Of a stretch of DNA of 64,000 bases, positions 9,966 to 54,400 are shown one piece after another. Position numbers and translations under genes: made by a program. This DNA is from Paramecium tetraurelia (lineage: Eukaryota > Ciliophora > Oligohymenophorea > Peniculida > Parameciidae), in assembly GCF_000165425.1 (NCBI RefSeq), contig NW_001799015.1, forward strand, positions 1 through 64,000. Direction: 5' to 3'. The number at the start of each line of letters is the position of its first letter. Position 1 is the first letter of the stretch. Under the pieces are notes generated by a model. It was given only the letters and a program-made list of their open reading frames with translations, ran no database searches and was not told where the DNA came from.

Positions 9966-12900
9966 TCATTACTATTATGGTTATTTTTTTGGTTTTTTCT
10001 TATTCAAAAATCTCTCTATTGCTTGTAAATCTTAGTCATTTTCTAAATCCATCATCTCCTCTATATTTAATGGCTCCAAACTAACTACAGCCTATTGCTT
10101 TTTCCTAGATTAATAATAACAAACAAGTCATACTGTTATTGATTGCCAATACCTAAATTAGTTTTCATATCCAGAATGGCATCAGTAATCAATTGTTGTC
10201 TCTTTTTAAGCAGAGCCATATCATGGTCAATTCTGGCAGTAGGATCCCCAGCAGAAAATTTAAACTCTGTGTTCTTAAACATCAAATATAAGGAATCTGC
10301 CATCTTAGACACTGCTTTTAATAAGAATTGGTGATCATTCACTTTAGGTCTATATAATATATTAACTTTTACTCTATAAATTCATTCCAAAATTGAGCCA
10401 CTGCCCTTATTGTGTCTGGGCAATCAAAACAATTTAACCAAGCTTTGATTCTTATATCGCTTGCCAAATTCAATTCAATTTCCCCCTTCATTTATGTCCT
10501 ATAAGCAAAATATTCCCTAAAAGCTGATTGCATCCCCAAAGCCCACTTATTTAAGAGACACTTGTTTGGTAAAGCTGATAATTTAAAAATAGTCTAAGGA
10601 GTCAATTTTACTACCTCAACTACCAATTATGATTTAATGTTGGAAGATAGTGCTTTAACAACAGACCTCCACCCACTTCTATTGGTTCTGATATCCTTTT
10701 TGTCGATGGTTATATCTTTGAGAGGAGCACCTCCCTTTAATTCCAATAGTTATTTACCTGGTTTAAGTTAATAAACAGGAATAGATCCATAAGCACAAGA
10801 TATTTGAATTAATCTACCCTTATTGGTTGAATAAGTAATAAACTCGAAAATCAACTCTATCATATTATCCATTTTCTCATCGAAATTGCCCCATCTCAAA
10901 AACATCGCTTATTCCATTGCAGCAGAATCGAAGATCCATCTGTCTTCGTATTCTGAGTTCCATTGAGCAGGAATATAAATAGCATTGCCATCAAATTTAT
11001 TTAATGCTTTATCCATGAGTATAATTCCTACTTCTCTTCTCAAAAAGGAACTTCTGGGGACATCTTTTTCATCTGGAATTGGTATTCCAGTTGCCTCAAT
11101 CATTCGAATTTCAGCTATATAATTGTTTTTGATATTAACTTTATCAAGAATACTCTATTTTATATTGAAATTGGCAGCATCTACGTAATTTAATCCTTAA
11201 TAGAAAAATCCACAATTGTCTAAGACAGGTTTCAATTATTATGAAGGTAAATTTTGTAATTTTTTATTTTGACTGCGTACAAAACTCATGATAAAGTTTT
11301 AAGGCAATGTCAAAAATATTTCCTTTAAATCATGCAATGATATTCTTCGACTACCCTTAATGTTCATAACAGCAGCGGATGCCTTTGCTGACATTCCTGA
11401 TTAATTCTTCTAAATAAAGTAAATAAACTCATCAATATCAATTGAACCTGACTTATCCTCATCTATTTCAATAAACAAGTCCTCAAGTTCTTCGTTTTTT
11501 ATTTGAACTCCCATATTTTAAAATACTTAGCTAACTTATTCTTTTGATAGCATTCTTGTTGTTGGATTACAAACTTATCTAAACTCTCTTCTTAGATCTT
11601 CTAATAAATCATCTGCTTATAATAATTCTTTTTTTAGTATATCTTTAACAATGTGCGAAAACTCTTGGTAAGATATGGTCCCACTTTTGTCTCTATCAAA
11701 TTATGCAAAGTATTAAGTTAATTCTTCAGTGCCTGGGTTGAGTCCTACTGATTATAATGCTTTAAGTAATTCCCTTTAATCTAGAGATTAATTTTTATTT
11801 TCATCAATCTAATTGAATAGTTCTTGGATTTCTTACTCAATATCTTAACTCATGATAATTTATTCAGCCTTGTTTTTGTTATTATCTCCTTATTTCGATT
11901 AGAACACTAGTCTAAATTCATTTATTGAAATATTTCCACTTGAATTTGCATCTAAATAATCGTATAAGTCTTCGCATTAAATGGCTGTTAATCCAAATTA
12001 AGCTTCAAGTGCTTTTTTGACAAATATATTTTTATCGATGGTACTGGCTGAATTAGGAGGGAAAAAGTAAAGTGCAAAGTCATCATATGATTTATTTCTC
12101 TTTTTCAAGAATTCATTTATGATTGGTAACATTTTTGTAAACTTTTCTTTGTTTTGTGTATTGAGTATACTCTTTCTTTAATCTTTATTGGCCAATCCAA
12201 ATTATTATTTCTCATCATCCTAATTAAATTATCCTGTTTTGCTTCTATCAACCTTTAAGGATTGAGCCAAATCACTTAAATTGATAAATCCATTTAATTG
12301 TAATGTTTGCTTGATTGCCTTTATCTCTTCTCCTGAAATAGTTCCCAATAGCCTTTTACTGATTTGTAAGAAATCATTGTAAGGTATTTAATTATATCCC
12401 TTCTTATCAAATTATTCAAACAAATTAAAGCAATTCTTCGAAAGCACCACTTCAGATAAGTGTAATAAAAATGCATCTAAAGTTTATTTCAATCCTATTT
12501 CCATCTATTATGATTGCTATTGCAAAGGATTATTATTCTTTGTAGGCACAATGATTTGATTCAAATTTAATATATCGTCATACATCCTATAAGTAATCAC
12601 TCCTGATTATTGAGTATCCCAATATTGAAATGCTTCTCTTAGTTCTCTTTCATTCAACCCAATCTTAAGATTTTTGTTAATTTTTATTAGCTAAGGCATT
12701 TGCCAAGTTTGTTATTATTCTCCTATCAAATTCCATAGTTATTGTTTTGTATACTATTAATGTTTGACCATTGTAAAGTTGAGTGCTTTGGCTAATAGTT
12801 TTCCAGGGTTGTTCATTTTTAGATAAGGCAACACAATACTCATTTAATTTTATCCCTGCGAATAATAATAGTAGAATTATTGGATATGTGGAGTCGGTGC

Positions 12901-15900
12901 CATAACTTCTAAAAACAAAAATGCCTATTCCAATTACTCTGGCCTGGATATCTTCAATTCTGGTAAAGCAGTTTCATCATACTAACACAATACATCGAAA
13001 AGGTCGACATTTTTCTAGATACATTTCCTATGCAATTCTTAATCATAAAAACTTAGATCATATTCTTGGGGAATTATTGATTACTGATTCTCTGGCTATC
13101 TGTCATTGCTATCTTTCCATTGGTCTGGACCTTATTTGGGTGGAAACATTTATTGATCGGATGCCTAACTCCATCGTTAATCGATTTTATTGTTATTCTA
13201 CACCCATTGTTATTTTATTTCATTATCACCTTAATTATTTTACTAGTTATAATTAGTATTTTGAGGAGGGTAGACAATAGATTATGATATATTTGATGGA
13301 TTAAAAGAACCCAACATTGGATTTGGAGGATCATTTTAATTCTTAAATTAATTTTATTACTATTGCATATATTATGGTTATTATTGATATCCTTAATTAC
13401 CATAAGACTATTAGAATTACTATGGATTAGGCGATTATTAGAATTGATTTGGTTATTAAAATTATTAAGACTAATATTATTATTATTATAATTATTATTA
13501 TTGCGATTATTAATATGATTATTGCTATTAATATTATTATTAATATTACTAGTTTGGCTATTATTATTATTATTAGTATTGCTAATTTAGTTATTATTAT
13601 TATTAGTATTATTAATTTGGTTATTATTATTATTAATATTATTAATTTGGTTATTATTATTAGTATTACTAATTTGGTTATTGTTAATATCCATTAGGTC
13701 CAGGTGGATAAGGTTATTATTATGGAATTTACTCATACTATAGAGTAATTCGAGTTTATTATTACTTAAATGATAAAATAAATCTAAATTAATCTAATCG
13801 TTCTGCATATTCTTTATCAAAATACCTGAAGAATTAATCTAATTCCAAGATCTTATACTTCTTGAAATAATTCATATACATTGTAAATTATTTGAATTCT
13901 ATGGATTAACTGCCTTAAGATATGATATTAAATAATTCTGAAATTTGTTATTCAAATTATGGATTGCGACCATTCAGCATCACTAACTTCATATCTTCTA
14001 TTTACTATTTTGTTAATTCATTTCTTTTATAAACTTGATACTCAAATTCTGTAAAATTTATTTTTCCATCCTTATCCATATCAAAGATTTCAAACAATTA
14101 CCTTTGCACATCCTATGAACTTGAATATCCGATTGTTCTCAAAAGAAGGTCAGTGAATTCCTCATTAGATATATAATTGTCCCTATCTCTATCGGTTTGT
14201 CTATACAAATAAAGCAAAGTGCATGTTTCCTTTTCCATATATTAAGAAAAAGAAACAACGATCTTGTCAATCTCTTAATTGGTATTGATCACGATAACCT
14301 TTCTACTTTCCTTATACTATGCCAATCCTTTATTAATCAAGTCATTAAGTGCAATATAATCGATATAATCCTATGCATCTTATTCCAAGATTGTCAATAA
14401 CAAATCCCAATCATTATCTGTAATTTGGATTGATTTGTCAGCAATTCCTAATTTTAAACCCTTAAGCTTCACTTTGCCTTTCTTATTAAGATCAAACTCT
14501 TAGGCTATGTCAATAACACTGACATATTTTTATTACAATTGCTCTCTTAACTTAGTTAAGATTGCATCTATTTTATTCTAAGGCGTATCTATATGATGCT
14601 GCTTAGCTTTTTAATAAAGCATCTTATAATTGATTTAATTGCCTTACAATGCACCCAATTAATCGGCAATTCCTTTCATTTCAAGTGTTTGAGGAGTAGG
14701 TCCGTTATTCTTTTTTAATACCGAAAGAATGCTTTCCACATCTAATTTATTGGTGCAATCTTCATCCATTCCCTCAAAATCTCCCAATATGGTTGCTGAT
14801 GACTTAATAAACTTAATAACCTCATTGAACATTCCTCCTGATTATTGTTTGTTATCTTGAGATAGTACTTTTGGCTTTTCCTTAGCAAAAACCTTTGCTT
14901 TGAATTCACTGATACTTATTGAACCATCACCATTGGAATCAAGCAATAGGAATAGGTTATCAATTTATTTATTCTTTATGGAAGGATCAATGTCATGGAT
15001 CAATTTATTAAACTCTTGTCTATCTAAAACATCATTTCCATTTTGATCATAATTATAAAACAGTTAAGCTGTAGCATTTTTACCTGCTGAGATAGTTTGA
15101 TTGAGACCCAATAATAGTTATTCGGCTTCTACACAATCATCTAAAAGTAATTATAACTTTTCATATTACAAAAACTTTTTATCATCAGGTGATTATAAAT
15201 ATGATGCTAAACTTCTAAATTCAGCATAGTCGAATCCAAAATGATTAATAATATCTTGGAATGCGTTAATTAATATCTCCCCTCTACCTCTTTTATCAAA
15301 AATTTGTAAGGTTTAATTATTTTCATTCAAAGCATCTTTGAGTCTGAATACTGATTTCATAATTTAAGGCGTCAATACCTTGGAATCGACAGCACTAGTT
15401 CTTCTAAATTATTATTATGGTTCTTAATATTATTCTTATTAATATTATTATTTTGGTCTATTTTATTGTTAATTCTATTTTGGATTTTCATCATTCTAAT
15501 TAATAATTTTCTATTTAAATTCGTTTAGATTAATTGTATTATCATTATTTGCATCAAATTTATGGAACAGTGTCTCCAATATCTTCTAATCTACATTGCC
15601 TACCAATTATTATAAAAATTCTTAAAACTCCCTCATTTCCAACTTTGTATTTCTATTGGCATCATACTTTCTAAACAATTATTCTGGCTTACTTTATTCG
15701 TATGCCAATTCAGTGTTGAGATCTTGTAGTAATTTATTAGCTGCCTCGTCTAATTTCAAGCCTTGTCTCAATTTATTTAAGGATATGTTTTATTGATCTT
15801 GTTAAATGCAAATTAAAAAATCTTTAAATTTTTCATCTTCTGAATCTATCAACAATTGTTTAACTAAATAATCTTGCAGATGCTTTTTCTTTAAGGTACC

Positions 15901-18348
15901 ATCCCCCAAAGAATCTAAATCTTCAATGTCAGTATAAGTCATTTTCTTTTTTTTCATCATTTTATTAAGTTGCTCAAAAAAGATCACTGCATTATGTTGA
16001 CTAAACCTAATCTAGTCATTTCTTTTATCCTTATAATAAAGAATGGCCTCTATTAGTAAATCAATATCGACAAATGTTCTATCATTGGGTACCAAAAGAT
16101 TATTAATCAATTCCTCCTGTTCAACCTCAAAATCTGCTTTATGCACTTGTAATTAACGCAATTTATCCTTAAATTATTGAATCGACATTCGTTGAAATGT
16201 ACATTTGAAATATTATCTAGGAGTTTCATCCTTCTCTTATAATTCTTTAGAGATGAATTGCAACAGTTTTTTTTAACTATCAAATGATTTAGGATTGAAG
16301 TTAATGGATTTCTGTAATGATAACTCTGGGTCATCGAAATTGCTCTTTCTTTCTTGAACGCTATCTCCTCCGTCAGCCTCTTAAAGTTGTTTCCAATTTT
16401 ACACATGCAATTCTCTTGCCTTTTAAGCAATTGCCTATACAAAACGAGGATATTCAATTTCCTCCTTTACCCCAAAAGTATTTAGCAGGAATTAGAAATC
16501 TGTTTAACGAAGATGATCATTGGATTGTTTGAGAGCATTGAAAAATTAGCTTTAGGATATAATACTACTACTTTTTGTGCTAGATCTAATTAATTAAGGC
16601 AAAGTCATCTATATCCTAAGGAGACCATTGACAAGTTGAGTCAAAATATCTTTCAAATCTTCATTCACATTGGCATCAAAGTACGTTCTCACATTGTCGA
16701 AACTAATCATTTTTTTATTGTCTGGGTCTAGATTAAACAATACTTATTTTAGAATCTCAGGATTGGGTTAATATTTGATCTCGTTGAAAAACTTGTAAAT
16801 ATCATCATATCCCAAATATCCTTTTGATTTGCTATCGTAATGTCGGAAAAATGAAATAAACACATTATACACATCCCTTATGGCTTTATACATCTTTTTT
16901 TTTAAATCATCCACTCCTAATTATTGTTAATTCGTCGATTTGATATCATCGCAAAAGCTTTCATAATAAATGGTATTCTTCTTATTGGGATCATACTTCA
17001 TTTTCAGGAGGGGAATGTCTTCAGGATTTAGGTTTATTCCCTCCTATCTGATTATATTATCGAATTTATCAAAAGGTAGAATTCCCAACTATTCTTAGTC
17101 ACTTGCTTTCAAAATTTCGATCAAATTTATGTTGCTATCTTCTAAATAAGTATTAATGTCTTTTAACATTTCAAATAACTCGTGATCCTATGCCTAACTC
17201 AATTCTCCCAGTTTTACTACTTCTTTCTGTCGTTGAATCCAAGATGAAAGATCAATTTCATCGGTCTTTTGCACATCGTATGTTTGTAATAAAATTGCTT
17301 TTTCTTTAAAACTAATAGATATCTTGAGATCTTCTAAGGCATCCCAGAAATTTGTAGCTTTTATTTTTCTACTGACTGGTTGCAATTGATATTTGGACAA
17401 ATATTAAACAACTGTCTGTTACTTCTATTAGGTGACTTTTTATTTTAATTCATCCAATAACAATTCAGGGTTGGGTTAAAGCAGATTCTCATCATGCTGG
17501 ATGACATTATCACTGAAGAAATCTTAGATTGTGTCTTCCAATTCATGGATTGGAGACCTTGTAGAGGGATTCCTTTCCAACATTCTTTCTATCACATTGT
17601 ATAAATGTTATCCATACAACTTTTTGACTGTCTCTTTGATTTCAATTGCTTTGGCAGAATCTTAAGTATTAGAGTCTCTAAAGATTATCAATTCTTCAAT
17701 GTCTTTTAATGAAGCCATCTAAAGAAAAGTTAAACCCAATTACCAAATATCAACTTTGACTGGATCTCCTCCCAACAAATCTACGGCTGAACTGCCAGAA
17801 GCAAATCTCTAACTTTAATTCTTTTTTATTGCAGCCAAGGATTCAGGTGGCAAATATAATTCGTTATTCTCATTAGAGAATTAAGTGAAGTCTGTTACTA
17901 CACATTCGCTCTCTTCATCCTCGAATAGATTTGATGGTTTGATTCTCCCATGGAAGTATCTCTGATTGTCACCCTTCTTGGATTTATGGATTTTATCAAC
18001 CCAATTCGTGAATTCATTTACGTAAGTTTGCATTTTATTCATTGGGATATACACCCCTTGTCTCTTATGCTATTTGATTAAGTCTGCCATTGAACATTTA
18101 AATTTCTTATAAACCAGACACAGTGCCTGCTTCTCTTCCCAATATCCTTCAGGAATGTAAATGCCTGCTTTAGATAATCGAATTTTCATCTAATCCATTT
18201 CATCCACTAATTCCTTTTAGGTTTTCTTCTAAGGATTGACTAATTTGCATATGAAGAGCTCAGCTCCTTTCTTTTGCATCGAAGTCTTATTGTTAAGTGG
18301 ATAAACGAGTTGAAAGTCTGCTTATTGGAATTTTTTCAATTGTGACAT
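9966..18348 (-). CDS. Giant pseudokinase / multi-EF-hand / Q-rich protein
   Basis: One continuous frame of 2,776 residues with only two introns near its 3' end, 10350-10372 (23 nt) and 10105-10133 (29 nt). Residues about 1-300 form a kinase-like fold with FHGRIKPSNLF in place of the HRD loop, VVTDFTQFS in place of DFG, and DIWQLGLTFLQM; the catalytic Asp and the DFG Gly are gone, so it is a pseudokinase. Many EF-hand loops follow, including DANNDNTINLNEF (about 930), LDSNGDGSISISEF (1138), FDMDKDGKINFTEF (1421), LDANSSGNISINEF (2133), FDRDKSGTISYQEF (2218) and IDEDKSGSIDIDEF (2300). Residues about 1530-1680 are a Q/N/Y-rich tract. The last 430 residues are a conserved-looking domain I do not recognise, with IRMIEATGIPIPDE and IQISCAYGSIPVYQL, perhaps C2-like. 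It is probably a Ca2+-responsive scaffold. The start lies 9 bp from the divergent gene. Confidence 0.9.
13440..13700 (-). repeat. Intragenic Q/N/Y minisatellite (PNQQYQQQQQ units)
   Basis: Inside the giant EF-hand gene, imperfect units of about 27-33 bases encode PNQQYQQQQ-type peptides on the minus strand. Glutamine is written with TAA, TAG and CAA mixed, so the repeat is TAA-rich and looks like a poly-isoleucine frame on the plus strand. Flanking Q-rich sequence without clear units extends to about 13340-13760. Such tracts change length easily and can be prion-like. Confidence 0.85.
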
Positions 18349-18357
18349 AATTAATAT
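18349..18357. promoter_or_regulatory. 9-bp gap between divergent start codons
   Basis: Only TAATTAATA separates the two predicted ATGs. Two genes cannot both have a leader here, so one or both real starts probably lie downstream. In-frame ATGs exist in both: 18412 for the plus gene, and a Met about 25 codons in for the minus gene. Confidence 0.4.
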
Positions 18358-19620
18358 ATGAAAAAATTTTGTAATTTCATATGTTGTGCTTTGGATTCAG
18401 ATGAGGAGAAGATGGGTGAGGAAAAATAGATTTCAATCAAAAAGGAAGAAAAAACATCCTTGGAGCTTTATGGCAATTTCGAAACCCAAAACTACATGCT
18501 GGTTAGAATGACCTAAAAGAATTTCTTTGTTGATTTTTCTATGAGAAAATCCAAATTAGTAGAGAAGAACCCCTTATCTGTCTTCATATCGTACATAGAC
18601 AACGATGCCAAGTACGAACAGGACGAATCAAGTTATCTGATACCAGAAAAAGTGCTACAATACATTGGCAGAAGAATGAGGGAAGTCAAACCATCATTCA
18701 TAGTTGATGGCCTGTCCAGGAGTGGTATCAATGCAATTTAGTTCTCCTCTGAAACCAACACTTTTGTTTTGGGAAATAACTTTTCGATGTAATAAATTAA
18801 AAATGCTAATCACAATGCAACTATTTGTAATTTAAACATAAGATGCGATTTTCTTCAGACAAATCTACCCAAATTGCCAATCATAGAAAATGATGTCTTT
18901 TTCATCTAACCTGATTATTAAATTATTGATGGAAAATTGACATTAAACAACATTTTCCCTTCAATTTCAGATATTCTAGATTACTATTTAGTGTGGAGTA
19001 AGAATTTAATTCTAGTTTTACCCATCTAAGTTGATCTCCAAGCATTTTGTGAGGTTTTTTGTTAAAATTTGAAGGAGAAAAATTAGGATCAACTGATTTT
19101 TGAAATTCAAAAAATCCAAATCGATGGTGAGCTATATTATTACTTTATTTATTTTGGAGAGATAGCTGCTATCCAAACACAGGATGAATACATGTTAATG
19201 ACTGAAATGACTTTGGAAGATTCCAATCAACAAAATTTATTTGACTCCACTTATATGCTATTAAAGAATATTGGATACACCACGAATCCAAGGGAAATCA
19301 TGAATATCTTACTTTACTCTAGATAGATGTCGTAATTCGAAACTACCTTACAAGTTCTCATCAATCAAGTAATTAAACTTAAGTTTTATATTTCTTAGTT
19401 GCTTATTAAAGGCTTGTCAAATGAATCGACAATCAAATAATTGTTTGGTGATGCCGATGTTTTGTTGTCTTCAACGCCGAAATACAATCAAATCCAAGTT
19501 TAAGAAAATACGTTCGGATAAGATTGCCAGATTAAATAGTGCTACGAGTAGCAACAAACTTAAAAAAATAAAAAAGCCAAGAAATCTCAATTTATTTCAT
19601 TTAATATCCCAAGTGAATGA
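18358..19620 (+). CDS. TGS1-like methyltransferase fold protein with lost active-site motif
   Basis: 420 residues, intronless, ending at TGA 19618. Its middle part lines up with trimethylguanosine synthase TGS1, the enzyme that hypermethylates snRNA and snoRNA caps: DESSYLIPEKVLQYIGRRM matches the W-S-V-T-PE-x-IA start of the fold; FIVDGLSRSGINAIQFS matches the SAM-binding VVDAF-GVGGNTIQFA strand and loop; a D-x-D-type strand is represented by TFVLGNNFS; and CDFLQTNLPKL precedes DVFFIQPDYQ, where active enzymes have a (S/N)PPWGG motif. The glycine-rich SAM loop and the PPW motif are both lost, so it is unlikely to methylate. The C-terminus is polar and Lys/Gln-rich. The ATG used is 9 bp from the neighbour's start; ATG 18412 (MGEEKQ) is a good alternative. 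The fold assignment is inferred from motif order. Confidence 0.65.
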
Positions 19621-25721: not shown

Positions 25722-27326
25722 ATGTTATCCCAAACATAATCAAACCTTATTCCGAAAAAGAAGATCGAACATTACACTTATTTAATGCATGAGCAGATCG
25801 GGAGAGGATACAGTTCTAAGGTGTATAAGGGGAAGGATGAGAACACTGGAGAAGTGGTTGCAGTAAAAGTGATTGATGTGAAGGCAATCAGCAATGAGAT
25901 CGAGAGATCGTTGATCAATTAAGAGATCAATGCACTCAAGTTAATACAGTCAGTCAACGTTATCAAATTGCATGATTATTATCACACAAACAACAACACT
26001 TACATCATCACTGAATATTGCAATTAGGGGGATTTGGGCAAGCTCATTTAATAGTAGGGGGTAATACCTGAAGTGGAGGCCTTTAAAATATTGAGACATA
26101 TCATCAATGGATTCAAGGAGTAAATTAGGAAGGGAGTCATTCATAGAGACATAAAACCAACCAATATCCTCATTAAGAATTCAGTTCCCAAGTTGGCTGA
26201 TTATGGATTCTCTAAAATGATTAAGGCTCCCAAAGAGAAGGTATTCTATAAGGTTGGTACTCCTATTTATATGAGTCCTGAAAGTTATTTGGAGAATAAA
26301 TACTCAGAGAAGACTGATATTTGGAGCATTGGAGTGGTCTATTATTAAATGCTATATGGTTAATGTCCATGGGTAATCAATTCAGAAAGTGAATTTCAAG
26401 AATCTGTATCGCAACTGCATTTTAATCGTAACGTTCCCATCTCAGAAGAGTCAAAAGATTTCTTAAGGAGAGCCTTGTAAGTTGATGAAAATCAGAGGCT
26501 GTCTCTGGCTGAAATTGATCAACATCCCCTCTTCTTGCGTCGTAATACTACTGCTCTCAATAAGATGAGAGGGGCTTTAGTCAGCAATTCATTCAACAAA
26601 TCAATCACAAATATGAATGTCGTCAGAGTTAATCAAACCCAACAATGTACAAGGAGTGGGTCCACTTCGCATAAGCATTAAAAATCCAATCAAATTAAGG
26701 ACAGGATTGGGACTGTTGTGTAACATACATACCAAAGCTTTCATTATGGTAGTTTTTTCATTTATTTTGAATCTAGAATCTCAAGCTGAAGAGGTTATTT
26801 GTAATCTCCTAAATCAATGCAAATTCATTTATCGGACTTGTCAATTGATTGATCACATCAAATATTTGCAATCTCCAAGGTTGAGAGAGAAGATTATGGG
26901 GTATTTTGGAAGGGAAGTGATGGACATCATGAATAAAGTATGTGTAATACTTATTACAAGCTAAAAGAAGCATATGAGAAAGGAGTCAACAATATTAAAG
27001 TGATCAATTTCAACCATTAATTTGTGGTTGTCATACTAAATAAGCACTCATTCAGAGAAGTCTATTTGAGATATAAAGAGTATTATGGCATGTCTTTGTT
27101 GGGGGATATATCTGCTCTGAAGGATGTGATTAGAGAATTGAATCATCAACTCAGAATAAATGAACAAAATGAAACTGGTATTTTGTTACTAGATTACCTA
27201 ACCTATTATTACCAAGTAATTATAAGTAATAATCCTTAATAATTCTTGGATGGTAAGCCCATGAATGAAATTACCCCTAGTCATTATTAAGAAATTAGAG
27301 TGAAAATATATAATTTAGAAATATGA
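25722..27326 (+). CDS. ULK/ATG1-like Ser/Thr protein kinase
   Basis: 517 residues with introns 26749-26776 (28) and 26938-26960 (23). The N-terminal kinase domain (about 15-275) has IGRGYSSKVYKGKD, VAVKVIDVK, VIHRDIKPTNILIKN, a DYG in place of DFG (LADYGFSKM), and VGTPIYMSPESYLENKYSEKTDIWSIG in consecutive order. All catalytic residues (VAVK Lys, HRD Asp, DYG Asp) are present. The C-terminal 200 residues are helical and rich in hydrophobic heptads, comparable to the C-terminal region of ULK-type kinases seen widely in ciliates. ULK/ATG1 kinases control autophagy or, in ULK3/4-like branches, ciliary signalling; the subgroup cannot be fixed here. It begins only 17 bp after PP4R3. Confidence 0.88.
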
Positions 27327-32958: not shown

Positions 32959-35697
32959 ATGCCCTAATGGCAAATCATTTGGAAGACCTTTTATAAACAT
33001 CTCAAAATCTTAAGGTGGGACCAATATCAACAGTGGAGATGGCATAATCACTTTTAATGGGCTGACACTACATTCAAACCGATATTAATACTCCAATTCA
33101 TCTTCATTATCATCAGATTGTCCATTTTGGCAGATAACTTGTACATCTAAATTACCTTGGCAACCCAAATCTGTATCCACATCCTCCTATTCCTGTCATT
33201 TTCTAAAGCTATTTCAGAAGAATCACATTTCTTCATACAATTTTTGCCTCTCATTCAATAATATTGTATGTATTGGATCTGCTACATAATCAAAGAGAAG
33301 GACTATTTTATGCTGTATGTCACTCTAATTACCATCTATCAGAGCATGTACTCTACCTTACACATGAAGTTTATGACAATTATATTGTTCTTAATTCAGA
33401 ACATCTTCCTTGCTGACTTACCCTCATTTGAAGGATTGTTTATTTCAACAGCCCTTCTAATCCTATAGATTTTGAGAAAGGAGTTCCTTTATTTACAACA
33501 TTTTCAAAATCTACAAGCCTTATTCATGATAATAGATTCTACTCCTCAAGCTATGTGCATAGTCCATAAGGACAAGAATTTCATGCTTTATTCAAATAAG
33601 ATTTTTGATAATTTAGCCAACAAATTGGAGAGTACCAATTAAGGTGAGACTGATTAATCGCCTGAAAAAAGTTCTACTGTTCATTCAGCGAGAAATTAGT
33701 TAAGTTTTTTATAGAATCTATAATTGGATGAATTGAATAACAATTAGACTCTATTTGATTTCGATGATGAGGATCTAGAAATGGAGGATCAATATAAAAT
33801 TAAAAATGTAACTTATTGTAAAGAAAAAACTCAATTGTTGTCATAAAATAGATTTTCTGTTGAAATCTAATAATTACCCCCCAAAAGTCATTAATAATAA
33901 TAGAAGTTTTTCTAATCCTTCAAGAATCAAGAAGATGAGAGCATAATAAAAAAGAAGTTCACGTCAGATGTGACTATGAAGATAGAATTCAACAATTCTC
34001 CCCAGATCAATATTAATTCGGCTGGCAAGAAGAGTTCTCGTAAAAGATCTCAAAATCAAATCAGATTAAATAGGTCCTCTGTGTATGCAACACCAAGTCG
34101 CAAAATCTCGGTTGATCAATTATTGTCAAAGGAAAGCAAAGAGCATCGAAATTCCAATCAAAAATAATCATTATTTGATCAAGATTTAAATATTACACCT
34201 AGAAGTAATCCAACCATCAATCATAAAATGAAATTCCTAGTCAATGTTTTAGAAAATTGCAGAATATTCGATAATGATGATGGTTTACAAATCTATTTCA
34301 TTAATGAAATCAATCAAATCCTATTAAGAGCCAAACTCAAGAAATTGGAATCCATTAAGAAGAATATTCTTAGATCAATTTCCCATGAATTGCTCACCAA
34401 TCTTAATGCCATTTTTGGATTCATCAAACAATGTCAAGACAAACAATCTTCTAAAGAGTCTTGTGCCTTGCAATTAGAATAAGCACTCTGTTATACTAAA
34501 CTCTAGTTGTATAAGATATACGATTTCTTCGATTACAGAGACATTCTAGAGGAGAGACTAATCATGAAATCAGATAAGTTTGAACTAAATTCAGTTATTT
34601 GGGAATGCGTAGACCTACTCAAAGATTAAATTGAAAGGAAACTCATCTCAATTAAAGTTAAATTGCCAGAGGTTTCATATATCATACTAGGTGATCGATA
34701 GAGATTGTGTTAAGTGCTCCTTAATTTGATTGCCAATGCTATTCGATTTACTTTGAAGGGTGGAATTACTATATAAGTTGAGAAAAAACAATACATAGAG
34801 TCGATGCAAGGAATAGATGATGTACAATCATTTCATCAATCAGACTCAAATTTGATACAAGTTTCTATAAGTGATACTGGAATAGGGATGAGTGAATAAG
34901 AATTATACAACCTGAGAAAGAAGGTATTTGTTATAAGATAATTTTAGTTACACCTCGCTGACGACGATGAAAAAGTGTCCAAATAGTCAGTTGGAATAAG
35001 TTTAGGATTGTCGGTGTGCAAGTACATTGTAAAACATTTGGCACCCATGCATTAGAATTATCTCTCGGTTGAATCATAGTTGGGTGTGGGCTCATAATTC
35101 TATTTCGTATTGTAATATGATGAAGAGTAAGTTCAATTCGAGCAAAGTAATTTATAAAATTCATTTATTCATACAATCCCCTTCTTAGAATAACAAAGCA
35201 CTCAACAGGTTCGAGTTTTAAATTATAATAAATTCGGCAAGTCTTAAATTGGAGACTAATTGAAAAGTCTAGACACTAATATTTGTAAATGCAAAAAGAC
35301 ACTAATTGTAGATGACGAGCAATTCAACATTCACATCCTTTCCCACATCGTGAAGCAATTAGGATACGATGTGGATTACGCATTCAACGGCTAACAAGCC
35401 ATAGAGAAAATAGAAGTTTAGTTAGCTAATCGATGCAATACATCAACATGCATCGGCTACAAATGTATATTGATGGACATTAATATGCCTATTATGAGTG
35501 GTTGGGAGGCTGTCTAAAGAATTAGATAAATGGAATACAAAATCAAATTAACTCGAACCATACCTATCATTGCAGTTACTGCTTTCTGTAGTATCCAAGA
35601 TTAATAGAAAAGCATTCACGAAGGTTTCAATAGTGTTTTAATCAAACCTATAACGAAAGAAAAACTTTGTGAATCTTTTCATCAGTTCAATATTTGA
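32959..35697 (+). CDS. Membrane hybrid histidine kinase 1
   Basis: 912 residues, intronless. The N-terminal 200 residues contain about five hydrophobic helices (PILILQFIFIIIRLSILA, TIILFLIQNIFLADL and others). A 200-residue polar linker precedes the dimerisation domain with phospho-acceptor His at about residue 476 (SISHELLTNLNAIFGFI). The ATPase domain shows the N box LLNLIANAIRFT, G1 SDTGIGM and G2 GISLGLSVCKYIV. A C-terminal receiver has the acidic pair LIVDDEQFNIHIL, the acceptor Asp at about 840 (ILMDINMPIMSGWEA), IIAVTAF and the Lys in LIKPITK. It should autophosphorylate and pass phosphate to its own receiver; the signal is unknown because no extracellular sensor domain is visible. It is the first of three neighbouring kinases of the same plan. 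Confidence 0.95.
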
Positions 35698-45485: not shown

Positions 45486-48400
45486 ATGATGCAGAAGAAG
45501 CTTACCTAGACGAATAGACAAGCTAAAATTTAAGAATTCGTATTCCTCTCTTATAAACTAGACTCCATCCTAATTGATTTAGAAGCAATTATCTGGATAG
45601 ATTTTTGAAGATGCACATCCAAAAATCAAAATCATAGAATTTTAGAATCTGGCTGACTTCTCCTCTCAACCAGTGAGTAGTGTCCCGATCGATGAACCGC
45701 TGTTTGACCCAATTCCGCCAATAATACAATTTACAGACTATGAGGTACACCTTACTCTTTAAAAGCAAACAAGCCATTACAAATAAAGGAGAAGATTTTC
45801 AAGTTGCGTAACAAAGATCGGGTAGCTCGAAGGGTTAAAATATATAAGCCTGACTCGCGCTTATTTTAGGTTGTGCCTTAAGGTACTAATGGAAAAGATG
45901 CAGGAACAGGAACTAAGGCATTTATTTTATGATTATCATCCACTAGGTAGCTCCAGGTATGGAAACCAACTTCATTATTCGTTTTTCTCCGGAATCGAAG
46001 TCAGATTACAACTATGATGTTATTGTTGAGACAGAAAGGGAGAAATTTGTTGTGCCAATCGTTGCAGTGGGAAAAAGAGCGATGATAGGTACATAATTGT
46101 TTGGATTCCTTAGATTTCCCTGATTCTCTTGATTTTGGAAATTGCCCTGTTAAATACACTACCGAAAAGCCAGTTATCATTAGAAATCTAGGAGAGAAGA
46201 CCACCAAATGGTTCTTGAAACTACCCTTGGGTTTTGATGCCGACAAGAGGGAGGGAGTCTTAGAATATGGCAAGAATGAGCAAATTGTCATCAAGTAATT
46301 ATCCATATTAAATATACTAACAGATTCTTTCCAACCGAAGCTAGATCCTATAAGAATAAGGCAATTTTATAGTATGATAACATGGAGGCTTATGTGCCCA
46401 TTATCGGAGTGGCACACAATGGGAATGTGTATCTATCTAAAAGTCAAATTAATATGACTGAAGCCTTTATTGGTCTGCAATTGCAGTAGACATTATAGAT
46501 TATCAATAAATCAAATGTGAAAGTGGATTTTGAATGGAGGGCTTTTGCAACAGAGAAGGAGGAATAAGAAAAGAAGAATAGATTGAGGAATCAATTGGAA
46601 GAGGAAGAAGCTGAGGAAAGAATGCTTATTAAAGAATTGGTCTCAAATGAGGGAGTACATGAAGAATTGGAGTTAGAGGAAGATGAAGACAGTGAGGAGG
46701 AAGAGAGAGATGAAAAAGCTATCATTTTAAAGAGACAAAAGAAGGCTGAATTATAATTGGCAAGGAAATATAGAAACATTCGTAAGGCCATTGAGGATGA
46801 TCTACTTCTATTCATTGATGATATATTCACGATTGAACCTACACAAGGATAGATTTGGCCAAATTCAGAGATGACAGTTACAGTAACCTTTGTGCCAAGA
46901 AGTGCCTTTCTCTATTAGACTGTGGCCTATTGCAATATCTCTTGTTCAGAGGAGAGATTGCCTCTGAATTTGTATGGTCAAGGTATGGGTCCAAGAGCAT
47001 TTTTGAGTGTTTATGAGGTGAATTTAGGAGATGTGTTTGTTAATGAAATTCATAAGACAGAGGTTGTGATAGAAAATAGAGGAGAAATAGAATGCAAATT
47101 TGAATTGATGCCAAATGAAAGAGCATTTGGAAAGATGTTTAAATTTGATGTTGAAAGAGGAGTATTAGCAGTTGGTCAGAGAATGCCATTCACAATTACC
47201 TTCAAATCCAGCATCCCAGGTGAATTCAAAGAGACTTTTAGATGGAAATTAGAAGGATCTACAGATTAATTAACTATACTATTTATTGGACATGTGATTG
47301 CTCCTACATTCAATTTCTAAGATGAGAAAATTCAATTTGGTACTGTCAGTTATTCATTCGAACAAACCAAGAGCATAAGAATGACTAACACATCTACAGT
47401 TGCATTTACATATGAACTTAAAATTCCTGGAGATGGTAAATTAGCTGAAAGGGAATTTGAAATCGAACCTAGAAGAAATACTATCTAGCCTAAAAATTTC
47501 GATGTAATTAAAGTGACCTTCATTCCAAAATAAATTAAGACATATGAATAAGTTATGGTTGTAGACATTGAAGGTGTCGGTTAAGATATGTTATCGATAC
47601 CAATTACGGCTGACTGTCAAGCTCCAAGAGTGGAATTGAGACCAAGTGATAGATTGAATTTCAACAAAGGAGATGATTAAAAAGTATTCTTAAGAAATCC
47701 ATGTAAATCAAGAGTGGATTTAATTAATACATCTGAATTACCAGCCAAATTCGTTGTTTTACCTCAGAATGATGAGTATAAAGTATTAGCAGATTATACA
47801 GTGGAACCATCCAGTGGCAAGATCAATGGTAATTCAACTATGTCTTTGGAAGTGACATTGACTACTAAGAAATTATATGATATCACACTGCCATTGTAAA
47901 TAAATATAGTTGGTACCAATAATGGATAGCCTCATGTGATAACAATTGTAGCATTTTCAGAAGGACCAAAAGTGAAAACATCAAAAACAGAATTGGATTT
48001 TGGAAATGTTGAAGTCCTAAAGGATTATTCCCTAAAATTAACATTAACCAATGATAGTGATATTGAGGCTGATTTCCATGCCTTCACAAAGAATAAAGTC
48101 TCTATATTTAAACCCATTCAAAAACATGGAATTATAAAACCAAAGGAGAGTTGTGAAATTGAAGTGCTTTGTAGTGCTGACGATGCTGTGAAGGTTTCTG
48201 ATGTCCTTCATTTTGTTATCAAGGAAGGTGATGACGTAGAAGTCTAATTGAAAGCCAAAGGAATTGGGTCAACAATATTTTGTAAGGATGATTTATCATC
48301 TGTGAATATGGGAGTCAATTATACACACAGAAAAGTGACAAAGGAGATCTTTGTTGAGAATAAAGGCAGGAAATAATAAAAATTACAATGGACTCAAAAG

Positions 48401-51400
48401 AAACCACAATAGAAGAAAGAAGAATAAGATTCGAAGAATAACAAGGCTCCTCCTCCCCCAGAAGAAGAATCAGTATTCTCAATTGCTCCTGATACAATCG
48501 TTTTACCTCCTAAGCATGGAATCATGTTCTAATTCAGAGGATACTCACAGAAGAAGGGAAAGATTTCAGAGATTTTTATGTTAAATTCCACAATAGGCAC
48601 TGAAAGAAAAGCAAATCTACTATTTGCAACAACAATTGAAGGTGATTTCATCTAACCCACTTTGTAATTCTCAGAGAGGAAACTTTTCTTTAAGTATTCG
48701 TGGGAGAAGAACGTTCCATTTATGCCTATTTCAAAGAATCTCGAAATCACTTGTGCTTGTCCTCTACCTGTAAACTTTGACTTAAAGTGTCAATAACCCT
48801 TCACTGTGAATTAGGATAAGTTGTAATTGAATCCAGGTAAGAGTGCAGTAGTTAGAATTGATTTTGATCCTGCATTTAAATCTGATCGTAAATCTGGCGA
48901 TTTAGAAGGCAAACTCTAATTGTCACATTATGAACATCCTCATAAGGATCTGATTGATTTGATTGGGTAGGTCAACTTTCCCAATTTAATCATGGAAACA
49001 AATCTTATTAATTTTGGATCTATTTTATATGATACAACAAAGAAGATGGTTATGACAATGAAGAATCAAAGTGAAATGGCATTGAATTATGAATGGACTT
49101 TCGTAAGTGAAGAATTGTCTACTCAAGGACAATAGCCAAATATCCCAATTAATGAAATCTTTGACATCTTACCATTAAGTGGTTACATGGAACCTGGGTC
49201 AGAAGAACAAGTAGAATTTGTGTACAATGCAATTGGAGGACAAAGATTTAAAACTACTGCTGTGTGTCATGTTGATGGTGGTCCTGAGTACGAGGTGACT
49301 TTGGTAGGAGATAGTAGTTTATTATCATCTAAAATGAGCACTACTTTGATTGAATTAGGAGATGTGAGATTTTGTGAATGGGTTTCTAGAGAATTTACTA
49401 TTGAAAACACAGGAAAGGTTACTTTTGAATTTAAGATTGATTTGAGACACATAAAGAAGAAGGGATTCGTGGATGTACAACCATAAAATGGAAAGATTGC
49501 GGGAGGTGAAAAACTCAGAATTACAGTAAGAGTCTCACCAGTAATACCTGCAGAGTTCAAGGAAATTATTTTGGTGTAGATAGGATATTATGAGCCAGAA
49601 CCAATTACCATTATTGGAAGAGGTGTCTATCCTTCAATGGTGGTGTAATTGCCAAGATCTGAAAATCCCTTATTTTAGTAAAAGTTTGATGTTGAAATTG
49701 CTAAGAAGAAGGCTGATTTGGAAACTCAGACTAAGAGGGCTTAACTTATAGCTAAGACATAGAATTAGAAGGTTTAAGTTAAGACTTTGGAGTAAGTATA
49801 GTTGGAAGTCGAGAGGGACATTGACAGATTTGTGTTTTGTGAATAGATAAAGAGGACTGTTTTGGATAAGTAGGATGAGAGGACTCACTCAAGAGATCAA
49901 AAAAGAGAAATTCTATGATAATGTGATTTTGGCTACTTATATTTGTGATTTTGGAAATGTGGTGCTTAATTCAATTAGACAGAAAACAATAACCATCAAC
50001 AATCCAGGCACTTTGCCAGTTGAGTTTGTTTTAGATGGTAAGTACTTTAAACCTTAGGGATACAATATTGTACCGGAAAGGGTTTTGAATTTGCCAAGTG
50101 GTGCTAATATCACTTTGAACATTCAATATTAGACTAAAAAGAACATGGGTTTTGGACCAACTAAGACTGTAGTGCCAATTGAATTGAAGAAGGGTCCAAA
50201 GTTTCATCTTGAATTAGTGGCCAATATCACAATACCTTAAATTGTAATTGAGAATTCAGCTGATGGATAAATTGATTTTGGTAAAGTTCTGATTGGATAA
50301 AAGAAGATTATCTTCATTAAGATTTGTCAATGATAAAGAGATAGACTGTGAATGGTCTCAATCCACTAGATAAGAATTGACAGCTGATAAGAAAGAGGAG
50401 CCTAGATTTGTCTTAGTGCCTAATAGTGGCGTAATTAAACCAGGTGATAAATAATTAGTGGAGGCTCATTTCACTCCTTTGGTTGAAAGCTAGAAACTAT
50501 TCCTAAAAGTTCACTCTCAATATCAAGGAGAATGCAACACCTTATATATTAAATCTTAAAGGAACTGGAACAAGCATCAATTTATAATTACAATCCTCAA
50601 TTGATAAACATTGGGCACCATCTTACCCTATGATAAGTTTGCACATTCTGTATTGGAAATCAAGAATCCTACTGAATTTGACACTGAATTATTCTCATTA
50701 GATTTTGATACCCTATATTTGTAGGATGATGAAATTGTAAATAGTTATCCATAATTGGAACACACAGATTTTATATTGATGCCTGTGAGGTAGCCAGGAC
50801 AACCAATATGGTTAAGCATCGTTAGAAAGCATTCACTAGAAGTAAGAGAAAAGATCAAATCTTGAATAAATTACAAGATCCAAATGTTGAAAATAAAGAA
50901 CAATTGTAAAAAGAATTAGATGATATTGTAATACAGGAAACTATGATTAAAGTTGAATATCCAAAGAAGGTCAGCGAAGATGTCTTGAAAAATATTGTTA
51001 TCATGGGCCCTCCTAAATGTGGTAAGACTCATTTAGCCAATTATTTGGAGTAGACTCACAGAAGAAAAGTGATTAATATGAATGAGTTGGTTCAATGGAA
51101 TCAAGAGAATTAGACTTAAGCATATCAACAATTCGAGTAATATTTATAACAGAGATAAAATGAAATCCAATTTGTATAATAAGAGAGAGAGAAATTATTA
51201 AAGAAAGCAGGAAAGAAATCAAAGGATCTTGAAGACAAGTGGGGACCTATTCCATTGCATTTATACGAATACTTGAGTGAAGAGGTCATTGTAAAATTGT
51301 TGAAAGCAAGGTTGGCTCATGAAGATTGTGGTGCAGGTGCTATTTTTGATAATTTATAATCCAAATATTGGCCTAATGAATTATATTTGATGAAATGTAT

Positions 51401-54400
51401 CATGGAGATTGATTCTCATTTGTAAGTAGTAGTCTTGAAGGAATAATTTGATCAATATGGTTTTGAAATCTAGAAGTTGATTGAATGGCCAGGAATGGAG
51501 AAGTTGGCTGAGGAGGACAAACCTAAGAAAGAAGAAATAGTGGATCCTATTCCTACATCGAAAGACAAGAATAATAAAACTCAGACTAAGAGAGGAAAGG
51601 AGTAATCTTAGAGTGTAACTAAGAAGCAAGAAAAACCTCTAGTTTCACAATTACAATTATAACAACAACAATAATCAAGATAGAAATCAAGGCCAAAGTC
51701 ATAACCAAAATCAGCAGGAAATCTTGTGGAATAAAGTTACTATGATGTGTTTTACCCAGCTAGTTTTGAAGATGAAATACAGAAATAGAATTTCAATGAC
51801 TTGATAACAAAAGTGAAAGCTTTGGTTGAGAATAAATATCATGAGAAAATAGAAATAGCTACTAAAATTCATGACCCTGTGTTTGATGAAGGAAAGAAGG
51901 AAGAGAAACCATAGAAGCCAGCAAAGAAAGGCGATAAGCCACCTGAACCAGAAGAACCAAAAGTAGAAATAATAGATTACACACATCTGCAAAAAGGAGA
52001 AAGATAATTTAATGAAGTTCCTTTCCATTATAATTTACCATAATTATGCTAAACAGGATTGCAAGTAATACCAGCTCCAATTTATCCAAATCCAAATTCG
52101 TTGCCAATTCCTGATCCAATTTATCATTAGATTGTGATGAAGAAGAAGGACAACCTGAACTAATCAATACAAACAGGTAGAAAGAAGACAGACACAAAGG
52201 AGTCATCAATACATCAATCAAATGCAACTCTTACTTAGACTCTGAAATACTTTAACATCCTCACACCAAAAGATATGTATGTGAAGGATTACAAAATGCA
52301 ATCTTAATAAAAGACAGAACATGTTGATGAAGACAAACACAATCTCTAGGAGGAATAAAATAGACATTTAGAGGATATCAATTCACCAAGTAGGGAACAA
52401 CTCTAACATCCAGATTAATTGAATAAACCAGTCACTCCCTCAGTCAAAGCAAGAGCCAATGTTACTTCAAGATCGATTGCAAATGTAAGTAAGAGATCGC
52501 AACAGCAAAAGAATGCAGATTCATCATAAGGAAATGATCAGAAGTATAATTATAAACTTGAAGATTTAACTTAAAAACAATACAGATGGAATATCCCAGC
52601 TGGTAGAACATTGATTTTAGTGATCTAATTCTTTACTAAACATACTGGTTCATTTGAAGGCAGACTCAACTTTGACAATTTCTTCTCCATCAAGAAATCA
52701 GCTGCTGAAGTCAAAGGAGTTGCTGATTACCCATCTTTAAGTGGATTGCCAAAATAACTGTTTTGGACTGTGAAGAAAGCAAGACCTGCTCTTGCACCTG
52801 ATTCATACTTAAGCAAAGTTTATGTTTTAGAATGAACAAAGCTTTGATTTTGGACCATTGCTCATTGGAAAGTCTGATAAGATAGCCAATCGAGCAATCA
52901 ATAGCACAACATTTAGATTGTCTAATTCTGGTAAATTTGATACTGAATTGCAATTCTCCCTATTATCAAGCATCCAAGAGAATAAAGAGATTCAAAAAGG
53001 AGTGTTCACTTTGGATCTAGATAATTCTAAAATCCAAATGAACAGTGTTCCATTGGAGCTAAGAGTGTGGGCATTCCCAGATAAACCTTAGAAATTCAGA
53101 GATGATTTGATTGTCTAGATCAAAGATAATCCTCTGCCTCTCATCATTCCTTTGGTATGCATAGGATGTAGACCTACTATTGATTTAATTAATCCTGACA
53201 TAAAATTTGAAAGATTGTTAATTTCTTAATCTGATTCCAGGACAGTTACTATAAAGAACACAGGTATGATAAATGCAAAATGGAAATTAACAGGAATAGA
53301 GCAATTGGAAGAGGAGTTCTAAGTGATCAACACTTCAGGTGAATTGGCTCCTACAATGGAAGCTAAGATTGAAATAAGATTCAGAGCAATTAAGGAGAGA
53401 AAATTAAATTTGAAAATAACTCTTGAAGTTGAAGATGTGGAGAACATGAACATTAAGTAGGATCCCAAGATTATTAATGTGGATGCTGAAGCATTTTAAA
53501 TTTAAGTTGATATCAAGTATCCAACACCAGAGAATATTTTAGATTTTGGTAGTGTCAAAGTGGGTGATTTCAAAGATCAAGTGTTGTAAGTCAAGAACAT
53601 CGGGTAGTATTTGGTGAAAATTAAGTGTCTAATTAAAAAGAAGCTCTTCCCTCAATTGTTTTAATTGGAACCGATGGAAACTGATCTGAATCCTGGTTAA
53701 TAGAAGGATATTTTGATAAGATTTTGTGGAGTCAAGGAGATTAAGATGAAGACTACAAATGATACTACTGATCTATATTTGGAGATCTTGGAAGGGAAAA
53801 CACAAGAAATCTACAAGCCTGTTCCTATCAATGTGCAATTCAATAGTGTTTATTCGAAGTATTCAATTAATCCATTAAAAAATATCAATTTTGGACCCAT
53901 TCAATTCAATGAATCGAAAGTAAGACACTTGGAGATAAAGAATGAAGGGTAATTCGAATTCAATTTCACAATATTTGATTATGCAAATGAGGAATTCAGA
54001 AAGCAATTGTTGGACCAATAGACTAAGGAAGCCTAGGAAAAGAAGGAATTGATGAAGGCTATGCCATCTTCATTGGCACCTGTGGATCCTAAGAAAGGAC
54101 CAAAGAAAGATGATAAAAAGCAAGAGAAGAAATAGGCTAAGCCAGGGAAGAATGATCCACCTCCTGGATAATTGAAAATCGGGCAATGGACAATTATGCC
54201 TAGTATTGGCACAATAGCCCCAGACTCTTCTTGTACAGTGGAAATCACTTTTGCAGGATAGGGATAGAAGAACTATGAACAAAAATTGGCAATCGACATC
54301 ATTAATCGTAATCCAGAAGATTAACCAAATGGAATTGAATATGAAGTACTGAGTGAAAGTTGTATTCCAGGTATTAGTACAACTAGTTATGAATCTATTT

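Follow-up and report, generated by a model that had tools for sequence, protein, structure and literature searches.

A giant pseudokinase and EF-hand protein of Paramecium tetraurelia with a probable nephrocystin-1-like C-terminal domain

Introduction

The stretch of DNA analysed here (the window) covers the initial 64 kb of contig C62 of Paramecium tetraurelia, and its minus strand carries a giant gene whose product of 2776 amino acids (aa) combines a pseudokinase domain, two blocks of EF-hands on either side of a glutamine-rich (Q-rich) linker, and a conserved C-terminal domain. This C-terminal domain is very probably homologous to the C-terminal domain of nephrocystin-1 (NPHP1), a component of the human ciliary gate that is linked to kidney disease. 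The explanation preferred here, for which the prospects are evenly balanced, places the gene in a five-gene ciliate family with an NPHP1-homologous C-terminal domain preceded by an EF-hand region, and regards the product as a putative Ca2+-regulated scaffold of the ciliary transition zone. The protein is real, conserved and giant, and its order of parts was not met in the searches made here. It does not form a new category, as the part that was hardest to explain most likely represents a distant NPHP1 domain. An earlier sequence-only reading of the window had described a pseudokinase, an EF-hand array, a Q-rich tract and a conserved but unknown domain in one gene, and all of this was borne out except the word unknown. 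Publications are cited by accession and for excerpts of their text and tables.

Results

The C-terminal domain and its five-gene family

In a search of the 69-Mb genome assembly (231 contigs) with the last EF-hands and the C-terminal domain, 18 candidates yielded 10 matches. The C-terminal domain is conserved in five genes of the genome, namely the window gene, a twin gene on contig C76, C62b (three pieces in the search), C184a and C184b. C62b is located on contig C62 near 170 kb (L014:736-3200, minus strand) and contains EF-hands and the NPHP1-type domain; its gene model is uncertain in that a TGA interrupts the frame and was not bridged by the gene finder; decay of the gene, a misassembly or unusual splicing could account for this. 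The C184 pair (contig C184; L015:441-4355 and L016:380-4013, minus strand; 1281 and approximately 1190 aa) carries the NPHP1-type domain in two genes about 40 kb apart. A kinase part is missing from C62b, C184a and C184b, and within the family the pseudokinase half is found only in the window gene and its twin. Three of the ten search rows (L008, L009 and L010) were short EF-hand matches in genes that resemble centrin or calmodulin by eye, and these were dropped from the family.

The window protein was aligned locally with C62b at 33% (E=8e-80) and with C184a at 25% (E=1.6e-38), both alignments spanning EF-hands and domain (roughly window residues 2165 to 2670). With the tail of C184b alone BLASTP gave 25% (E=3e-28), and with the whole of C184b under the default composition correction it gave no match. 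When the C184b domain was used to search the genome, C184b itself, C184a and both twins were recovered and C62b was missed. The EF-hands just before the domain are clear in three of the five copies and weak in two, the number of strict loops shortly before it being four in each of the twins, two in C62b and zero in C184a and C184b, so that the Ca2+ ligands look lost in the C184 branch.

For the comparison with human NPHP1 (O15259, 732 aa) a sequence verified only in part was used. Residues 1-115 are identical letter for letter to PDB entry 6o1q, the SH3 domain matches 1s1n (E=1e-40), and the 11 residues that the excerpt of PMC10256716 names all agree with an offset of 0; nine of these lie between 545 and 683, and five fall within the aligned core (390-632). 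A profile of the five paralogues scored NPHP1 at 26.6 bits (E=2.5e-6 for 20,000 sequences), the best of 2000 shuffles reaching 5.3, and a rebuilt five-paralogue profile gave 25.2 bits, with 8.8 as the best of another 2000 shuffles. With hhalign, family columns 101-338 were aligned to NPHP1 390-632 over 224 columns (P=1.2e-6), and BLASTP against the C-terminal part of NPHP1 gave E=6e-6 for the window domain and E=4e-5 for C184b, each for one comparison. A four-sequence profile (A2) scored NPHP1 at 20.8 bits with filters off, and none of 177,635 PDB sequences exceeded 13.2 bits under the tool's own settings. Moreover, NPHP1 agrees in 14 of the 24 columns that are invariant in the five paralogues, versus 33 of the 183 other columns, and 14 such agreements were reached by none of 10,000 shuffles, although this test is slightly favourable because its alignment included NPHP1. 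The profiles of the sub-families all align to one part of NPHP1, namely 405-580 for window plus twin, 405-449 for C62b and 386-595 for C184a plus C184b. These statistics directly support homology of the C-terminal domain, and on the five-copy profile, hhalign and the invariant residues it is most likely a remote NPHP1 C-terminal domain.

No Pfam family, C2 included, was found at E<=10 in three copies of the domain. NCBIfam gave nothing near a cut-off, its only hit being a metalloproteinase model (E=0.023), and a PDB profile search gave no match better than E=0.32; assignment to C2 or another known fold was rejected for want of Pfam, NCBIfam or PDB support. Scans of bacterial/archaeal and viral contigs with profile A2 confirmed no relative, which says little because these libraries hold only bacteria, archaea and viruses.

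Gene model, twin gene and selection

Under genetic code 6 the window contains 107 frames of at least 150 codons, versus one under the standard code, as befits ciliate DNA. Together with this code, the very short introns of the gene (23 and 29 nt) and the existence of a twin suggest Paramecium as the source. Minus-strand positions 10339-18396 form a single stop-free frame of 2685 codons without TGA (code 6), and two short GT..AG introns carry it on to a TGA at 9966, with the ATG at 18348. The rebuilt model thus has exactly the limits (9966-18348) that the sequence-only reading had given for one gene. The gene finder was trained on the window gene and its twin and admits only introns of 18-35 nucleotides (nt), so that its support for the introns is not independent and the twin is the better evidence for the gene model. 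The twin (L013:109-8358, minus strand) encodes 2733 aa, with matching domain order and with introns predicted at both places.

The two proteins are 70.6% identical over 2724 aligned residues, with 67% in the kinase part, 65% in the first EF-hand block, 55% in the Q-rich part, 81% in the second EF-hand block and 83% in the C-terminal domain. The ratio of the proportions of nonsynonymous (pN) and synonymous (pS) differences was 0.12-0.27 for the folded segments, against 0.48 for the Q-rich part. Because pN is low (0.10-0.32) though pS is near saturation (0.66-0.81), purifying selection appears to act on all parts of the protein, even on the dead kinase. One conserved gene with this order of domains is directly supported by the twin comparison.

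Only 10 bases separate the gene start from the first ATG in a plus-strand frame (18358-19620), the two forming a very tight divergent pair unless the latter starts further in. This frame gave a weak match, below the cut-off, to RNA cap guanine-N2 methyltransferase.

Pseudokinase domain

Residues 1-299 matched Pfam Pkinase with E=1.6e-9 and 38.0 bits, above the curated cut-off of 31.7, and the twin matched with E=5.9e-13 and 49.2 bits, also above it; the proposed check of the N-terminus against kinase families hence came out in favour of a kinase fold in both twins. When the whole 2685-aa frame was scanned with Pfam at once, Pkinase was not picked up at E<=1. The HRDIKPSN motif of CaMKK2 aligns to HGRIKPSN in the window protein and to HCRIKPSN in the twin, and DFG to DFT and DFN, respectively. 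The catalytic Asp of HRD is replaced by Arg in both twins and the Gly of DFG is gone; DFG retains its Asp and HRDxxxxN its Asn. The earlier description of HRD as destroyed is thus correct, and that of DFG half correct. The Pkinase match sets in at profile position 20 for the window protein and at 25 for the twin, which leaves the Gly-rich loop unmatched. Judged from these residues, the kinase fold is catalytically impaired.

In a PDB profile search, 16 sequences matched the kinase part at E<=0.01, weakly and in a mixed manner. The best were STK32A, CaMKK2 and a STE20/SPS1-related kinase (6e-4 to 9e-4), followed by Nek7 (2e-3 to 3e-3) and a chain named CFAP251 (0.008). In the genome, a search with this domain gave at E<=1e-3 only the two twins (2 matches, 4 candidates). 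An ordinary protein kinase (Pkinase E=4e-63) is encoded elsewhere in the window at 25785-26789 (plus strand) and provides a useful contrast to the pseudokinase.

EF-hand blocks and Q-rich linker

A strict PROSITE-type pattern recognized nine EF loops in the window protein, all of which are kept in the twin with intact Ca2+-ligand patterns; a looser pattern gave 14 loops, some overlapping or doubtful. Pfam EF-hand matched the 2685-aa frame with E=9.3e-63. When the protein was scanned in pieces, EF-hand_7 was found in residues 286-600 (E=3.3e-8) and EF-hand_6 in 1761-2040 (E=3.2e-7), regions that both contain no strict loop, and residues 601-900 contained no EF-hand above the Pfam cut-off. With these additional Pfam-level regions, the dozen EF-hands of the sequence-only reading is a fair count if degenerate loops are included. 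The Q-rich tract it had noted is present, with 62 Q within residues 1551-1650, and is the least conserved segment between the twins.

A genome search with residues 297-1486 gave five matches at E<=1e-5, the two twins and three short EF-like stretches, the twin being the only long relative of the first EF-hand block. Among the PDB matches listed for this block (60 of 186), a calcyphosin-like protein (9.7e-8) and calcineurin-type chains rank above EFCAB6 (3.3e-6), followed by CDPK3 (1.3e-5), FAP225 (1.7e-5) and RIB57 (1.3e-4).

Table 1. Positions of the gene and its parts in the window.
Feature	Residues and details	Position	Strand	Basis
Whole gene	2776 aa, three exons	9966..18348	-	Code 6 open frame and introns; twin gene
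Pseudokinase domain	1-285; HGR 133-135, Asn140, DFT 153-155	17494..18348	-	Pfam Pkinase, PDB profile matches
First EF-hand block	286-1500; strict loops 932, 1101, 1137, 1386, 1423; Pfam-level EF pair ~500-555	13849..17493	-	Pattern and Pfam
Q-rich linker core	1551-1650	13399..13698	-	Composition
Second EF-hand block	1756-2318; strict loops 2133, 2182, 2218, 2296	11395..13083	-	Pattern and Pfam
Nephrocystin-1-like C-terminal domain (probable)	2319-2776 (458 aa)	9969..11394	-	Family profile, alignments
Core aligned to human NPHP1 390-632	2419-2656	10381..11094	-	hhalign P=1.2e-6
Intron 1	23 nt	10350..10372	-	Gene model; place matched in twin
Intron 2	29 nt	10105..10133	-	Gene model; place matched in twin (25 nt there)

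Other genes in the window

A giant HYDIN-like gene (45959-59751, plus strand) contains many ASH/Ig-like domains with matches to HYDIN/CFAP65 Pfam families (E to 7e-73) and, between these domains, a weak AAA match below the cut-off. It was split into three by the gene finder, and a single gene is a guess. Additionally, a eukaryotic hybrid histidine kinase is encoded in one 777-aa frame at 33364-35697 (plus strand), with HATPase_c (E=8.6e-14) and a response-regulator receiver domain (E=2.8e-19).

Discussion

Published record

Print is divided on NPHP1 in ciliates. It is marked as not present in Paramecium in Table 1 of PMC7093003 and as 'NO' in a table modified from it (PMC8535419), and in the excerpt of PMC4092220 it is restricted to opisthokonts, from which a late origin of the NPHP complex is argued; a single NPHP1 is entered for each of Tetrahymena and Ichthyophthirius in Table 6 of PMC3341644. 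PMC8041816 deals with NPHP4 and further transition-zone proteins of Tetrahymena, and its table, as excerpted, leaves NPHP1 without a Tetrahymena value. In Paramecium, NPHP4, CEP290 and RPGRIP1L are located at the transition zone and their depletion by RNA interference blocks Ca2+/ethanol deciliation; the extra EF-hands of Paramecium RPGRIP1L are dispensable for deciliation (PMC7093003). Among the papers listed on pseudokinases, nephrocystin and EF-hands of Paramecium and ciliates, no title or abstract opening describes a protein of the present kind. The statement that no named family has all these parts likewise held within Pfam, the PDB sequence matches listed and the titles and abstract openings listed.

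Points against the preferred explanation

Several results weigh against a Ca2+-regulated, NPHP1-related scaffold. Taken singly, the sub-family profiles score NPHP1 low: window plus twin gave 0.1 bit and placed it 22nd of 815 reported, C62b alone gave 4.2 bits and placed it second of 880, and C184a plus C184b gave a weak 8.9 bits, and only the latter and the five-way profiles rank NPHP1 first. With NPHP1 as the query, phmmer retrieved none of the family proteins, and a genome search with the NPHP1 sequence gave no candidate, a result that is uninformative. Because both the sub-family profiles and phmmer are weak, surveys with single sequences may have missed the domain. An SH3 domain was not found by Pfam at E<=1 on the 2685-aa frame or at E<=1 to 10 in pieces covering the whole protein, and the C-terminal letters of the NPHP1 sequence used were verified only at the residues named in the excerpt of PMC10256716. 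Ca2+ sensing is not shared by all family members, because C184a and C184b have neither a strict loop nor a Pfam EF-hand match at cut-off before the domain (best E=0.004 and 1e-4). Finally, the deciliation defect of cells depleted of NPHP4, CEP290 or RPGRIP1L is put down in PMC7093003 to deficient Ca2+ influx and not to Ca2+ sensing.

Alternative explanations

The weak sub-family profiles, which are near background, together with the lack of Pfam and NCBIfam matches and the published absence of NPHP1 from Paramecium and restriction to opisthokonts, would suit a C-terminal domain that is ciliate-specific or generically C2-like, its likeness to NPHP1 being due to chance or to a very deep common fold. 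This is improbable in view of the joint profile score, the agreement at conserved residues and the alignment of all sub-families to one part of NPHP1, and it is at odds with the NPHP1 counted in two ciliates (PMC3341644). The domain is colinear with human NPHP1 over 390-632; in place of the N-terminal helical domain and the SH3 of human NPHP1 (PMC10256716), the window protein has EF-hands and a pseudokinase, and the window protein, with no SH3 detected, is nearly four times as long. The Q-rich tract, as the least conserved segment, could also be the joint at which two neighbouring genes (kinase plus EF array; EF-hands plus NPHP1-type domain) were read as one, and the first half is indeed missing from the other three paralogues. 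Such a fused prediction is disfavoured because the frame is stop-free through the Q-rich part in both twins, with conserved residues on either side, and we consider it very improbable.

A kinase-like domain followed by EF-hands, with the DFG Asp and the HRDxxxxN Asn retained and weak PDB matches to CaMKK2 and STK32A, might also suggest a degenerate but still active calcium kinase resembling the calcium-dependent protein kinases (CDPK), which likewise have a kinase fold and EF-hands in one chain and of which CDPK3 is among the PDB matches listed for the first EF-hand block. The window protein differs from CDPK in the loss of the catalytic Asp, in far more EF-hands with long spacing, and in the extra C-terminal domain; the exchange of this Asp for Arg in both twins, the lost Gly of DFG, the unmatched Gly-rich loop and a distance of about 650 residues from the kinase domain to the first strict EF loop make residual activity highly unlikely. 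Possible, though clearly on the unlikely side, is a Ca2+-binding scaffold with an axonemal or cortical location instead of one at the transition zone. The EF array would then do the work, in the manner of EFCAB6-like proteins of doublet microtubules, and the NPHP1-type domain would be a reused membrane- or partner-binding fold. EFCAB6, FAP225 and RIB57, which we take to be axonemal proteins, are among the matches listed for the first EF-hand block, and EFCAB6 is similarly a long EF-hand protein (1410-1497 in PDB rows). Its match is a single local one of about 100 residues, however, and does not stand above other EF-hand proteins among the matches listed; since the calcyphosin-like protein and calcineurin-type chains score better and CDPK3 about equally, these matches track general EF-hand similarity. 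The description of NPHP1 as a transition-zone protein (PMC8104407) also speaks against an axonemal or cortical role.

Proposed mechanism

The transition-zone scaffold preferred here agrees with part of the sequence-only reading, whose idea of a Ca2+-gated ciliary scaffold would fit the NPHP1 link well and would be narrowed by it to the ciliary transition zone. NPHP1 binds NPHP4, and the NPHP1-type domain may anchor the giant protein in the transition zone, probably via NPHP4. This placement is suggested because NPHP4 is present in Paramecium (PMC7093003). On entry of Ca2+ into the cilium or the cell, the EF-hands would load and change shape, and the loaded EF-hands would alter the hold of the scaffold on its partners, including whatever binds the dead kinase domain, which would act as a binding module. 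The altered scaffold might then adjust the gate or local Ca2+ responses, for example ciliary shedding. As a whole this sequence of steps has at best an even prospect of being correct, and a role in shedding by itself is doubtful. Paramecium RPGRIP1L, compared by description only, suggests a similar kind of addition, being a transition-zone protein to which EF-hands were added in the ciliate; it differs in that its conserved domains are coiled coil and C2 and its EF-hands are C-terminal (PMC7093003).

Implications

As a speculative and rather unlikely extension, NPHP1 may never have been lost in ciliates: its C-terminal domain, which ordinary searches overlook, would have been kept and remodelled into a family in which some members sense Ca2+, with the giant pseudokinase form as a transition-zone Ca2+ receptor that couples influx to shedding. 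If this is true, the origin of NPHP1 would be pushed back before the opisthokonts, and a hidden ciliate form of NPHP1 would weigh against the argument for a late origin of the NPHP complex (PMC4092220). Moreover, the giant protein would then be a testable candidate for the Ca2+ sensor of a shedding process that needs NPHP4, CEP290 and RPGRIP1L, though not the EF-hands of RPGRIP1L (PMC7093003).

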